This document shows positions 3,259 through 19,845 of a stretch of DNA of 25,006 nt, in pieces (positions within the stretch are counted from its first letter, which is position 1; each line of letters starts with the position of its first letter). The stretch comes from a virus. The notes under the pieces are model-generated. The model saw only the letters and a list, made by a program, of their open reading frames with translations. It had not been told where the DNA came from and made no database searches. The stretch spans positions 1 through 25,006 of IMG/VR virus record IMGVR_UViG_3300045912_000374; one strand, given 5' to 3'. The position numbers were made by a program, and so were the translations under genes.

Positions 3259-4293
3259 CTAAAACAGCGTCAACTGCCGCTCGGCCGGCTCCGCCGGCTC
3301 CGCCTCGAAGACTGCCAGGAATGCGGCCGGCTGCGGCAACTTGGCCACCGCCTCGGCCACCATGCGCGAAGGATTCAGATAATGCCGCTCGGTCACACCC
3401 CGCTCGCTGTGGGCCAGGATCCAGCGGCCGACTCCCGGCGCAATCTCTTCGTAGGCCGTGCAGCACGTCTCGCGCAGATCGCGGCACTCGAGCGGCGCTG
3501 ACATCTCGGCCGCTGCATTGATTTTGGCCCACTCGCGGTAGAACTGGTGTCGCGATTTCGTGGGGTGAAACACGTGCGGCCGGTCGTCGCCAGACGCCGG
3601 CACGATCGCCGCCAGGTGCGCGCGGGAGACTCGGTTGAGCGGCATCCCCTGGAGTTTCGACGTCTTGAGCGCACTGAAGCGGAACAGTCCGCGATCGAAA
3701 TCGATGTCCTTCCACCACAGTCCCCACAGATCCCTGGTGCGCAGGCCGTAGTTGTAGGCGAGCACGATGAAGCACCGCCACAACGCGGCCGCCGGCTGGC
3801 CCGACCTGGCTGGCGGCCAGCCGGCGGCCGAGCAGGCCACGTAGAGCCGATCGAGCTCCGCGTGCGTCGCCACGCGCGGTAACTTGGGTCGCAGGCGCGG
3901 CATCTTGACACACGGCACCCGCTGCAAAATGCCTTCGCCCTGCGGATTTCCAAGCGCCTGTGGCGACAACCGCCGCAAAATGGCCCGCAAGTGCGACCAG
4001 GTCTTCCGCACGGTCGCCGGCGCATACCGAGAGCCCAGAAGCCCATCCCGTAACGCCAGCACGTGGGCATTCGCGATCGCGGCAATCGGCGGGTCCCCCG
4101 TCAATCGCTCCCAGTGGTTCAGGGCCGTGCCATATTCGCGCCGCGTGGCGTAGGCCGCATCGAACAGATCGGGCTCGAGCCAACGCTCGTAGGCTTGGCG
4201 TAGCGTTAGGGCCCGCGGATCGACCGGCAGGTCGGTCGCGAAGAGTCGCAGCGCCGCGTTCGTCTGCGGCAGTGGGGGCTGGTGGTGATGCAT
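3259..4293 (-). CDS. int: Tyrosine recombinase / phage integrase
   Basis: The 344-residue product has a core-binding domain at ~28-110 and a catalytic domain at ~140-310. Catalytic positions are visible: R185 (NYGLRTRDL), K210 in the beta hairpin (ALKTSK), R274 (RDLRET), H295 (LAHS) and Y305 (TERHYL). The first position of the usual HxxR motif is Arg271 instead of His or Lys, an uncommon change. The enzyme would cut and rejoin DNA at attachment sites; a matching tRNA-derived core lies about 1.4 kb away at 5705-5746. GAGGG about 9 nt before the ATG supports the start. A second minus-strand frame covers the whole gene but reads as non-coding apart from its first ~50 residues. Confidence 0.93.
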   Translation of the reverse strand: MHHHQPPLPQTNAALRLFATDLPVDPRALTLRQAYERWLEPDLFDAAYATRREYGTALNHWERLTGDPPIAAIANAHVLALRDGLLGSRYAPATVRKTWSHLRAILRRLSPQALGNPQGEGILQRVPCVKMPRLRPKLPRVATHAELDRLYVACSAAGWPPARSGQPAAALWRCFIVLAYNYGLRTRDLWGLWWKDIDFDRGLFRFSALKTSKLQGMPLNRVSRAHLAAIVPASGDDRPHVFHPTKSRHQFYREWAKINAAAEMSAPLECRDLRETCCTAYEEIAPGVGRWILAHSERGVTERHYLNPSRMVAEAVAKLPQPAAFLAVFEAEPAEPAERQLTLF

Positions 4294-8127: not shown

Positions 8128-9255
8128 ATGAAGGTCGAGCTGCGGAAACTGGCGGACCTCCGGCCGTACGAGCAGAATCCGCGGCTCAACGCCGACGCCG
8201 TTGCGGCCGTGGCCAGATCGATTAAGGAGTTCGGGTTTCGGCAGCCGATCGTGGTCGACGTCGAGGGCGTGATCATCTGCGGGCACACGCGCTTCAAGGC
8301 GGCCGAGTCGCTGGGCCTCTTGAAAGTGCCGGTGCACGTGGCGCGCGATCTTTCGGCCGCGCAAATCAAGGCCTACCGGATTGCCGACAACCAGACGGCG
8401 ACGCTGGCTGAGTGGGACCCCGCGCTTCTGCCGATCGAGCTGGCTGACCTGCGCGGGGCGGCTTTACCCGGAAAAACAGCGATTTCCGGAGCGCCAATCA
8501 AGGCCGGGAATGGTGAATCGGCCGGCGAGGAAAGTCTTTCGATGTCAGAGGAAAGACTTCCGGGGCCACAGGAAAGTCAGGCCGAGGCGGCCATGGAGTT
8601 CGATTTGGGCGCGCTGGGGTTCGGCGACGATGAACTCGCGCGACTTCTGTCGGGCTCATTGGCCGGTGGTCTGGTCGATCCCCAGGTAGGGGACCTGGAT
8701 GCCGTGTTTGTAGGGTCCGATCCGCAGGCCATCATTCACCAGGGCGCTCGTCGGTGCGATCGTTTCGATTTCAATCCCGAAGGTCAGCTCGTTCGCGTTC
8801 ATGGTTGTCCTTTCGTGGGGTCACTCAAAAAACGGGGGCCGCCCCCGCGGGCGGCCCGTACGTGGCCAGGTGGTCGTGGGAGGTCATCCGTCGGCAAGTG
8901 CGAATCGTCCGCGTTCGGTTCGGCGGAACCGGGCCGCCTTGCCCTTCGTGCGCATCTCGCGCTGGATGGCGCTCGACAGCGTGGCGTGCGGCGTCTTCCC
9001 GGCCGGGCTTTTCCACAGGCCCTTAGCCGCCATGGCCTCGATCAGCTCCCGCGTCGTGAGGGCCTGGCCTCGTGCTTGGCCCAGGACTCTGGCCGCGGCG
9101 TCGATCACGCTCAGACGATCGGCGGCCTTCGCGGGCTTCTTGGCGGGTTTCCTCTGCCTTGCGCTCATTCGTGTTTCTCCTTCGGTGGTTGTGGTTTACG
9201 TCACCCAGCGAGCACACAGTTACCGATGCGGGTATCACACATCAAGGTGTATTGA
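8128..9255 (+). CDS. ParB/sulfiredoxin-like domain protein, probably 3'-truncated
   Basis: GGAGAG lies 6 nt before this ATG. Residues 1-~110 are a ParB-type nuclease or CTPase domain: KLADLRPYEQNPRLN, FGFRQPIVVD, IICGHTRFKAAESLGL, then AYRIADNQTATLAEWD. Phage proteins of this type often carry a DNA methylase domain after the sequence LLGFDDDELARLL...GL.DP. Here that linker appears at residues ~168-188 (LGFGDDELARLL ... GGLVDP) and homology then stops at about base 8690. The rest of the frame runs antisense to an amidoligase remnant and to the HARE-HTH gene and is unlikely to be a real domain. The stop at 9253-9255 is given because it is the first in frame. The natural C-terminus seems to have been lost by deletion. 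Confidence 0.72.
   Translation: MKVELRKLADLRPYEQNPRLNADAVAAVARSIKEFGFRQPIVVDVEGVIICGHTRFKAAESLGLLKVPVHVARDLSAAQIKAYRIADNQTATLAEWDPALLPIELADLRGAALPGKTAISGAPIKAGNGESAGEESLSMSEERLPGPQESQAEAAMEFDLGALGFGDDELARLLSGSLAGGLVDPQVGDLDAVFVGSDPQAIIHQGARRCDRFDFNPEGQLVRVHGCPFVGSLKKRGPPPRAARTWPGGRGRSSVGKCESSAFGSAEPGRLALRAHLALDGARQRGVRRLPGRAFPQALSRHGLDQLPRREGLASCLAQDSGRGVDHAQTIGGLRGLLGGFPLPCAHSCFSFGGCGLRHPASTQLPMRVSHIKVY
8656..8802 (-). pseudogene. Amidoligase N-terminal remnant
   Basis: The 48-residue frame starts with an excellent ribosome site (AAGGAC, 5 nt spacing). It reads NANELTFGIEIETIAPTS, then YKHGIQVPYL before a short unrelated tail and a stop. The FGIEIE motif and the GIQVPYL segment match the start of putative amidoligases (ATP-grasp-like COOH-NH2 ligases), which normally run to 300 residues or more. 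Homology ends near base 8693, the same point at which the opposing ParB gene loses homology. It is best read as a gene cut by a deletion that still has its start signals. Confidence 0.65.
8827..8858 (-). terminator. Intrinsic terminator of the HARE-HTH gene
   Basis: On the minus strand GGGCCGCCC and GGGCGGCCC form a perfect 9-bp GC stem with a 4-base loop (8836-8857), followed downstream by a run of six T (8832-8827). It lies about 26 nt beyond the HARE-HTH stop, in the right orientation to end that transcript. Confidence 0.8.
8884..9168 (-). CDS. HARE-HTH (HB1/ASXL-type) winged-helix protein
   Basis: The 94-residue product has a Lys/Arg-rich N-terminus (RQRKPAKKPAKA). A HARE-HTH domain at ~20-90 follows: SVIDAAARVLGQARGQALTT, RELIEAMAAKGLWKSPAGKTP, TLSSAIQREMR, RFRRTERGRFAL. 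This fold is found in bacterial RNA polymerase delta subunits, restriction enzymes and eukaryotic ASXL proteins and binds DNA or chromatin-like targets. AAGGAGA lies about 9 nt before the ATG. The gene diverges from the basic protein at 9290, with a perfect palindrome between them, and is followed by its own terminator. It could control that intergenic region. Confidence 0.85.
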   Translation of the reverse strand: MSARQRKPAKKPAKAADRLSVIDAAARVLGQARGQALTTRELIEAMAAKGLWKSPAGKTPHATLSSAIQREMRTKGKAARFRRTERGRFALADG

Positions 9256-16697: not shown

Positions 16698-16720
16698 AAG
16701 CCTCAATCGGAGCCCCCATG
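16698..16720 (+). promoter_or_regulatory. Shared translation-initiation box, copy 2
   Basis: Exact 23-base copy of 15958-15980, ending in the major capsid protein ATG. The bases just upstream are also similar (CCTCA ... AAG), so the duplicated block may be slightly larger and diverged. Confidence 0.75.
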
Positions 16721-17698
16721 CCCTCCCCGTCAACCAGTCTCGCCACGCTGCGACCCGATCTGGCCGCCAGCTTCCAACAGTTCGACATCGAGGCCAACCT
16801 GCGCGGCATGATCGCCGGCCAGGCGCTGCCGGTGATCGAGGTCATGGTGGCCTCCGGGAAGTTTGGCAAAATCCCGATTTCGCAGCTCCTGCAAAATCGG
16901 GAAACGTCCCGCGCGCCGGGCGCCGGCTACAGCCGCGGCAAGTTCACGTTCACCGACGACTCGTTCAGCTGCGACGAGCACGGCGCAGAAGAGCCCGTCG
17001 ACGATCGCGAAGCCAAGCTCTACGCCAATTACTTCGACGCCGAGCTGGTGGCCGCCCAGCGGGCGCTGTCGGCGGTGCTGGTGAACATGGAGAAGCGGGT
17101 CGCTGACCTGCTCTTCAACGCGACCACCTGGACGGGTGCGGCGCTCACTACGGCCATCGTCAATGAGTGGGACGATTTCACGAATGCCACGCCGATCGAC
17201 GATGTTGAGGCGGCCGTGAAAAAGGTGTACGACGGCTCCGGCCTGTGGCCGAATGCGCTGATCATCAACCGCAAGGTCTTCCGCAACCTGCGGCAGTGCA
17301 CGCAGGTCATCAACCGCATCGCCTCGAGCGGTGCCGGCTCCGCTACGAAAGCCGCCGACATCACGCCCGCGCTCCTGGCGCAGGTCTTCGATTTGCCCAA
17401 GATCCTGGTGGCCGGCGGCTCGCGCAATAGCGCCAGCGAAGGCGCGGCCGCCACGCCCGCCCAAATCTGGAGCGGTGAATATGCCATGGTGGCCCGTGTC
17501 GCCGAGACCAACGACATCCGTGAGCCGTGCGTCGGCCGGATTTTCCACTGGGGTGAGGACGGCTCCTCGATCGGCGGCACGGTCGAAACCTACCGCTGCG
17601 AGGAAATCCGCTCCGACGTCGTGCGCTGCCGCAACGATGTCGACGAGAAGGTGATGTTCGTCGAAGCCGCGCACCTATTGAGCAACGTCACCACGTAA
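16718..17698 (+). CDS. Major capsid protein
   Basis: The 326-residue product matches major capsid proteins of the HK97 fold. It has an early stretch (FDIEANLRGMIAGQALPVIEV), a flexible E-loop-like region (FTFTDDSFSCDEHGAEEPVDDREA), a long spine helix (FDAELVAAQRALSAVLVNMEKRVADLLF), and a P-domain with TPIDDVEAAVKKVYDGSGLWPNALIINRKVFRNL. The terminal region has WHWGEDG-like and CRNDVDEKVMFVEAAHLL sequences. It assembles the icosahedral shell after scaffold removal. Position after terminase, portal, protease and cement genes is canonical. It has CGGAG 6 nt upstream. Confidence 0.92.
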   Translation: MPSPSTSLATLRPDLAASFQQFDIEANLRGMIAGQALPVIEVMVASGKFGKIPISQLLQNRETSRAPGAGYSRGKFTFTDDSFSCDEHGAEEPVDDREAKLYANYFDAELVAAQRALSAVLVNMEKRVADLLFNATTWTGAALTTAIVNEWDDFTNATPIDDVEAAVKKVYDGSGLWPNALIINRKVFRNLRQCTQVINRIASSGAGSATKAADITPALLAQVFDLPKILVAGGSRNSASEGAAATPAQIWSGEYAMVARVAETNDIREPCVGRIFHWGEDGSSIGGTVETYRCEEIRSDVVRCRNDVDEKVMFVEAAHLLSNVTT

Positions 17699-17704
17699 TC
17701 CGTT

Positions 17705-17725
17705 GAGCGGCCGGCGTCAGCCGGC
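17705..17725. repeat. GCCGGC stem-loop repeat, copy 1
   Basis: A 21-base unit containing GCCGGC-gtca-GCCGGC follows the major capsid stop by 6 nt. It is identical, in inverted orientation, to 21878-21898 and differs by one base from 21339-21359. All three follow stop codons, so they may act as transcript-end or stability hairpins. Confidence 0.7.
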
Positions 17726-17752
17726 GGTTTGCGGCCCGAGGCCTAAATCTGT

Positions 17753-17757
17753 GGAGG
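17753..17757 (+). promoter_or_regulatory. Ribosome site that defines the ATC start
   Basis: GGAGG at 17753-17757 is a full consensus ribosome-binding site. The codon placed 7 bases after it is ATC at 17765-17767. No ATG, GTG or TTG lies in the correct frame between the upstream stop (17744-17746) and base 17879. Confidence 0.7.
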
Positions 17758-17764
17758 TACGCCC

Positions 17765-18133
17765 ATCGCCAACATCTTTGAAGCGGCCGCCGGCTGGCAC
17801 AATGCGGCGCTGGCCGGCAACGCGGGGGTCTCGATCACGTACCGCCGCGGCAGCCAGTCGGCGGCGCTCACGGCATGCGTGGGGAGGACCGAGCTTTTGC
17901 GCCAGGCGGGCGACGGCGTGATCACCCACGCACAGGAGCGCGACTACTTGATTGCGGCCGACGACCTGGTGCTGGGCGGCGCGGCCACGCTGCCCGAACG
18001 CGGGGACCAGATCGACGAAACGATAGACGGCGCCACGGTCACGTTTGAAGTGTTGCCGCTGGCCGGCGAAGCCCACTGGCGCTACAGCGACCCGTTCCGC
18101 ACGCTCTTGCGAGTCCACACACGACAGAACTAA
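17765..18133 (+). CDS. Head-completion/connector protein with apparent ATC start
   Basis: The 122-residue product reads ANIFEAAAGWHNAALAGNAG, then VSITYRRGSQSAALTACVGRTE, DYLIAADDLVL, LPERGDQIDE and ends HWRYSDPFRTLLRVHT. The pattern resembles phage head-tail joining proteins such as lambda gpFII. The first standard start in frame (GTG at 17879) would delete 38 residues of clearly coding sequence. GGAGG is perfectly spaced for ATC at 17765. Initiation at ATC is known but rare (infC and pcnB use ATT). A single base change or sequencing error from ATG is the simple alternative. Confidence 0.8.
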   Translation: MANIFEAAAGWHNAALAGNAGVSITYRRGSQSAALTACVGRTELLRQAGDGVITHAQERDYLIAADDLVLGGAATLPERGDQIDETIDGATVTFEVLPLAGEAHWRYSDPFRTLLRVHTRQN

Positions 18134-18593: not shown

Positions 18594-19141
18594 TCGGATT
18601 CTCTGTCAATTCCGCCCGCGGCCTCTTCTTCGATCGGCCCGCCGTCATGGCGGCCGTCAGCGCCGCGCGCCTGCGCGTGCTCAGACACGCCGGCGGCCTC
18701 CTGCGGAAGCTCGCCCGCAATAGCATCCGCAAACGCAAGAAGGCCAGCGCGCCCGGATCGCCGCCCTCCAGCCACTCCGGCATCCTCAAGCGCTTCATCT
18801 ATTTCGCCTGGGACTCGTCGAGCCGCAGCCTGATCGTGGGCCCCGCCCGCACCAACCAGGTCTTTTTCGACGGCGACGGCCGGCCCGTCACGGGCACCGT
18901 CCCGGAGGTCCTGGAATTCGGCGGCCAGATCGGCGTCCTCGAAGCCCGCAATCCCTTCAGCGGGAAATGGGGCCGCGCCGACCTGCGCTACCGCCGCACG
19001 AACAACGGCGGCCAGGCCACCTGGGAGCGCCGGCGCCGCACGATCACGATTCCCGCCCGGCCCTACATGGGTCCCGCGCTCTTGAAGGTGACTCCCCAGT
19101 TTCCGGCGCTGTGGCAGAACGCCGTGCGGAGGGCCGCATGA
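18590..19141 (+). CDS. HK97 gp10-like tail/neck protein
   Basis: The 183-residue product opens with FSVNSARGLFFDRPAVMAAV and contains helices rich in Arg/Lys (AGGLLRKLARNSIRKRKK). It ends VPEVLEFGGQIG ... RPYMGPALLKVTPQFPALW. That final pattern (an [EF]FGG segment, then a PYMGPAL segment) is characteristic of HK97 gp10-like or lambda gpZ-like head-tail and tail-completion proteins. It overlaps both neighbours by ATGA. The role would be to stabilise the head-tail junction. Confidence 0.75.
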   Translation: MIGFSVNSARGLFFDRPAVMAAVSAARLRVLRHAGGLLRKLARNSIRKRKKASAPGSPPSSHSGILKRFIYFAWDSSSRSLIVGPARTNQVFFDGDGRPVTGTVPEVLEFGGQIGVLEARNPFSGKWGRADLRYRRTNNGGQATWERRRRTITIPARPYMGPALLKVTPQFPALWQNAVRRAA

Positions 19142-19845
19142 GTTGCCCTGATGGATTCCCGCGCATCTACTTGGCGCCGCCACGCGAGCCCGACCCGGAG
19201 GGGCAGGACTCGTGGCGCTCGGCACCCAAACCGCGATACGACTGGCGCGCCGGCGACGTCCTGCTGTTCTGGGGCCGGTCTTGGAAAAGCCGAATCATCG
19301 AGCTGGTGACCTGTGGCCCGTCGCACGTCGGCCTCATCGCCGACGCGCCTGACGGCAGCCGGCTCCTGCTGTGGGAGTCAACCACCCTGTGTGACCTGCC
19401 TGACTGCATTGACCGGCAGCACCGCCAGGGCGTCCAGGCGCAGGACCCCGACCAGCGCGTCGCGACCTATGACGGCCGCGTGGCCAGAATGCGGCTCGCG
19501 CCGTTGTGGCACCTCGACTCACTCGAGCGCGACCTGCTGCGGCGCATGACGGGCCACCTGCATGGCGAAGACTATGACCTGGCCGGCGCCTTATTGGCCG
19601 GCACGCGCGTCTTCAAGTGGACGCGCTGCATGCCCTATCCCGACTTAGGGTCGCTCTTCTGCTCGGAAATGGTGGCCGCGCTGCTGATGCGCTTGGGCCG
19701 GCTGCCGCTCGGCCACCCCGGCCGCTACAGCCCCGCGTCGCTCGCGCGGCACCTGCGCACCTGCGGCACCTACGAGGCCCTGACGCCGATCGCCCCCGCC
19801 GCCGCCCGCGCCCCAGCCCCAGCCGCCCACGGGAGGCCCGCATGA
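19138..19845 (+). CDS. Permuted NlpC/P60 (YiiX-like) cysteine peptidase
   Basis: The 235-residue product has GDVLLFWGRSWKSRIIELVT, then GPSHVGLIAD with His63, LLLWEST with Glu80, and LFCSEMVAALLMRLG with Cys175. This His-first, Cys-last order is the circularly permuted NlpC/P60 (YaeF/YiiX-like) papain fold, whose members act on peptidoglycan or lipid-linked amides. There is no signal peptide. It lies right after the neck genes, where a tail-tip murein hydrolase or a lysis enzyme is possible. It overlaps both neighbours by ATGA. The C-terminus is an Ala/Pro tail. Confidence 0.8.
   Translation: MSCPDGFPRIYLAPPREPDPEGQDSWRSAPKPRYDWRAGDVLLFWGRSWKSRIIELVTCGPSHVGLIADAPDGSRLLLWESTTLCDLPDCIDRQHRQGVQAQDPDQRVATYDGRVARMRLAPLWHLDSLERDLLRRMTGHLHGEDYDLAGALLAGTRVFKWTRCMPYPDLGSLFCSEMVAALLMRLGRLPLGHPGRYSPASLARHLRTCGTYEALTPIAPAAARAPAPAAHGRPA

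Follow-up and report, generated by a model that had tools for sequence, protein, structure and literature searches.

The textbook case of an AUH start is that of E. coli infC, the gene of IF3, whose natural AUU is conserved and linked to autoregulation. Hecht et al. reportedly examined all 64 codons for initiation in 2017. AUU, AUC and AUA count among the bacterial start triplets, AUC being discriminated against by IF3 (PMC4611024), and AUH starts are given for 4 of 3844 less-expressed genes of M. tuberculosis in a survey table (PMC11052298). As initiation at AUC is thus already known in bacteria, its use in a phage would not be a new mechanism; a literature search for a natural ATC start in a phage found nothing relevant. 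In phage lambda, the stopper gpFII forms a single hexameric ring, six copies per virion, and its N-terminal helix (residues 4-24) builds the ring where the adaptor rests (PMC10721106).

We describe here a gpFII-like phage gene with a putative ATC start. It lies in a 25,006-nt stretch of viral DNA (IMG/VR record IMGVR_UViG_3300045912_000374), the whole of which is called the window below. Like infC, the gene has a start supported by homology at which an AUH triplet stands, together with a Shine-Dalgarno (SD) sequence, and low initiation and sensitivity to IF3 would be expected of it. Unlike infC, with its conserved, autoregulatory AUU, the triplet is ATC, stands in a phage structural gene, is shared by 0/26 relatives, and its use is only putative.

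A gpFII-like stopper gene 3' of the capsid gene

Two genes of the structural module are at issue:

16718-17698, + strand: major capsid protein gene, ATG start (phrog_1005 major head protein, E 3.5e-46)
17765-18133, + strand: head-tail joining (stopper) protein gene, 122 aa, PF25138 (Pfam, AlphaFold2 and gpFII structure match)

The stopper gene stands directly 3' of the capsid gene, in a module of portal, S49 protease, scaffold-like and capsid genes. Its product matches PF25138 (Phage_H_T_join_3) with 121.7 bits (cut-off 27; E 2.4e-35), residues 3-121 falling on positions 2-120 of the 125 of the profile, and its AlphaFold2 model (pLDDT 90.3) has a helix at residues 4-20 followed by a beta-sandwich. 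The top Foldseek matches of this model are lambda gpFII chains, 8k37_M (E 1.4e-4) and 8xow_f (E 2.0e-4). In a second structure comparison, lambda gpFII scored Z 11.5 and the neck of phage Chi Z 12.1, with many other neck proteins after them. With gpFII, 103 residues align at an rmsd of 2.6-2.7; the order of N-terminal helix and beta-sandwich is the same, the model helix 4-20 corresponding to the adaptor-contacting helix 4-24 of gpFII, whereas the sequences are only ~20% identical. A profile score above the curated cut-off, the helix and beta-sandwich fold and the capsid and portal neighbourhood place the protein in the PF25138/gpFII-like group. Judged by profile and predicted fold, the gene encodes a phage neck stopper ring protein of the lambda gpFII type, which bears out its initial identification, from the bare sequence, as a head-completion gene; by analogy with gpFII, the product would form a hexameric ring in the neck.

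Reading frame and Shine-Dalgarno sequence

The following features surround the start of the gene:

17705-17730, + strand: GC-rich hairpin GCCGGC GTCA GCCGGC, in the capsid-stopper intergenic region
17744-17746, + strand: in-frame TAA, upstream closure of the stopper frame (direct reading)
17753-17757, + strand: SD core GGAGG, 7 nt 5' of the ATC at 17765
17765-17767, + strand: ATC at the homology-defined start position, where 26/26 relatives have ATG (22) or GTG (4)
17879-17881, + strand: GTG, first canonical start codon in frame, rejected as start (residue 39, no SD)

By direct reading, the earliest ATG, GTG or TTG of the frame 17747-18133 is the GTG at 17879. The in-frame codons after the TAA are ATC TGT GGA GGT ACG CCC ATC(17765) GCC AAC ATC TTT GAA, and the frame stays open through to the TAA at 18131-18133. 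Between the GGAGG and the ATC at 17765 lies a spacer of 7 nt, TACGCCC (17758-17764). The sequence-only reading had placed the TAA, the GTG and the GGAGG exactly so. In the window, a GGAGG 5-9 nt before an ATC is found at 2 of the 430 ATC triplets of the + strand and 2 of the 367 of the - strand, a rarity (~0.5%) that makes its chance placement exactly at the homology-defined start unlikely. GGAG or GGAGG also stands 5-8 nt before the ATG of several other genes in the window, so that SD-led initiation is normal for this phage. Two more ATC triplets were rejected as starts, that at 17747 for lying upstream of the SD and that at 17774 for its 16-nt spacer, both being mismatched to the aligned N-termini.

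The stability of the hairpin at 17705-17730 is not significantly above that of shuffles (fold z -0.5 to -1.1). A pattern scan gave 0 terminator-like sites around the stopper start, the hairpin not being scored as one, and no known RNA element was found there. Avoidance of CCATGG, the site that an ATG would create, was also rejected as a reason for the ATC (10 observed in the window versus 8.7 expected). Thus, no special RNA structure, terminator or restriction-site avoidance was found that would account for the codon.

The start position among relatives

Relatives were gathered via the stopper protein itself, the capsid gene, the downstream gene and the portal gene. The family HMM covers 24 relative loci, with ATG at model position 1 in 21 and GTG in 3; one of them (L043) came via its capsid gene and was outside the training set of the first model. 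Two further loci, fetched via the downstream gene (L107 and L108), have ATG and GTG, respectively, at the same aligned position. Model position 1, with which the ATC at 17765 aligns, is therefore canonical in 26/26 loci (ATG 22, GTG 4, ATC 0), three of which (L043, L107, L108) were found via a neighbouring gene and not the stopper gene, and among which there are near-duplicates (L004-L006, L010/L011, L097/L098). No relative is above 49% identical in protein sequence, and the N-termini align ungapped from codon 17765 to the conserved RR at residues 27-28 (comparison with L002, L003 and L092-L103). Stopper homologs were not found in annotated phage records, and no relatives of the protein were confirmed in bacterial genomes.

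The canonical codon of all 26 relatives at the aligned position is the strongest evidence, of a positional kind, for 17765 as the start site, and the alignment makes it very probable that translation starts there. The sequence-only reading had both claimed this start and proposed the comparison of start codons across related phages, none of which was found to start at 17879. In the alignment, the ATC is a private departure from the ATG or GTG of the PF25138 relatives, one base from the former and two from the latter. A start conserved as ATC in the family was thus rejected and, no relative having it, the codon is not a conserved regulatory start. An SD at proper spacing and the lack of any canonical start that would preserve the conserved N-terminus, as looked for in an AUH start, are both found here; the third such sign, conservation of the codon among relatives, is not.

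Genuine start, consensus error or disabling mutation

One gene from elsewhere in the window enters into the weighing of the alternatives:

3262-4293, - strand: tyrosine integrase gene (PF00589, phrog_1)

Translation beginning downstream at the GTG 17879 would make use of the earliest canonical codon of the frame, but this codon has no upstream SD and no relative begins at its position. Lying inside the strand 31-47, it would also drop 38 residues, with the helix 4-20, the strand 21-28 and the conserved R28 and A37, the lost helix being the adaptor-contacting part in gpFII. We find such a start scarcely credible, and here too the sequence-only reading, which began the gene upstream of this GTG, holds. 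We likewise give next to no weight to frameshifting from an overlapping frame that carries a GTG at 17751 and a TTG at 17703: an open frame (17703-17921) does overlap the start of the stopper gene, but the shifted start would coincide with the SD itself, and the homologous proteins start exactly at 17765, without extra N-terminal residues.

We favour a real ATC start yielding some protein, with a probability of about 0.58, which, like our weights for the two readings that follow, is a judgement and not a computed posterior. The C would then be truly present in the phage, and AUC would be used in vivo. The intact frame, the open nearby genes, the intact SD and the reports of AUC in bacteria all count for this reading, and the strong discrimination of IF3 against AUC counts against it, as does the presumably essential nature of the joining protein; with 0/26 ATC among the relatives, conservation lends no support to ATC as a functional choice. 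A base-calling or assembly error, with a canonical start at 17765 and a wrong C at 17767 in the consensus, is possible, though less likely. It would agree with the ATG or GTG of 26/26 relatives and with the ATG of the capsid genes, found at the aligned start of all 82 relatives of the gene at 16718-17698 and in 85/85 related capsid genes (82 + 3) of the same kind of contigs. Moreover, one substitution is enough to turn ATG into ATC, and the base is known from one unreplicated metagenomic contig, exact-pattern scans of viral contigs having found no second copy of the locus. However, no other sign of error is seen in the structural module, where the frames for terminase, portal, protease, scaffold-like protein, capsid and stopper are each open. 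Substitution errors are rare in assembled contigs, and true ATC starts are likewise rare. A genuine mutation largely disabling the gene, such that a prophage in decay or a minority variant was recorded and the stopper is not usefully made, seems very unlikely to us. AUC is a poor initiator, and the integrase gene points to a probably temperate element, possibly a provirus in decay, but the structural genes examined are all open and family-typical, and the strong SD is still intact.

Proposed initiation and dosage of the stopper

For a real ATC start, we propose that a one-base change from ATG, the codon of most relatives, would have left ATC in this phage. The GGAGG would hold the 30S subunit at the stopper start, where fMet-tRNA would pair with the first two bases of AUC but be mismatched at the third, and IF3 would reject most of the AUC complexes, leading to a low yield of stopper. 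The low yield may be tolerable, the stopper being present in some six copies per virion as against capsid subunits in their hundreds. The product would start with fMet, to be removed before Ala. The predicted N-terminal peptide from 17765 is ANIFEAAAGWHNAALAGNAGVSITYR, and its processed form starts at Ala. As a rule, an initiator Met is cleaved off when Ala follows it (PMC5576327), and for this reason the N-terminus to be expected in mass spectrometry, initially given as MANIFE..., is corrected to ANIFE....

The initial premise of a need for high expression of the gene is doubtful, its structural counterpart gpFII forming one hexameric ring (PMC10721106). As gpFII is needed in six copies, weak initiation together with a strong SD could suffice. 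The low copy need undercuts the premise of high expression; that the phage profits from the ATC does not follow. One might speculate that a rare AUC and a strong SD deliberately keep the six-copy stopper low, 3' of the abundant capsid gene, as a setting of stoichiometry possibly sensitive to the IF3 of the host, but we consider this unlikely.

Gene callers limited to ATG, GTG and TTG would drop the gene or truncate it to the GTG at 17879, with the loss of a third of the protein; a non-canonical start can in this way hide a conserved structural gene. If confirmed, this would be a naturally occurring AUC start in a phage gene that appears essential, and would offer an uncomplicated natural system in which to ask whether the neck-to-capsid protein ratio is tuned by start-codon strength.

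Host and neighbouring genes

Within the bacterial genome collection, relatives of the capsid gene occur only in Planctomycetaceae/Pirellulales MAGs (L105 and L106, 65-68% identity), and the host, judged by the capsid gene alone, is probably a planctomycete. PF25138 was not found in these two MAGs.

Among 80 phages (L012-L091) with capsid proteins 61-69% identical, the HMM recognised a PF25138-type stopper in the same place only in L043. Most of 16 other loci of this set, read by eye, have a different small protein 3' of the capsid gene, with the pattern M..F...F...G.P.LL.QFGE..Y, in which the spacing from the Met to the conserved Tyr is often the same. From these comparisons, the neck gene across the set appears to be very divergent or a swapped module.

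The ORF 8128-9255 has a ParB-like/methyltransferase match confined to the ParB N-terminal part (residues 1-111 on positions 33-146 of the 633 of phrog_498) and, being without the methylase part, may have arisen by truncation or re-joining. The protein of 19138-19842 has a weak match to phrog_1128, which carries a moron / auxiliary metabolic name, yet it is encoded within the structural gene block, and this name may be wrong for it.
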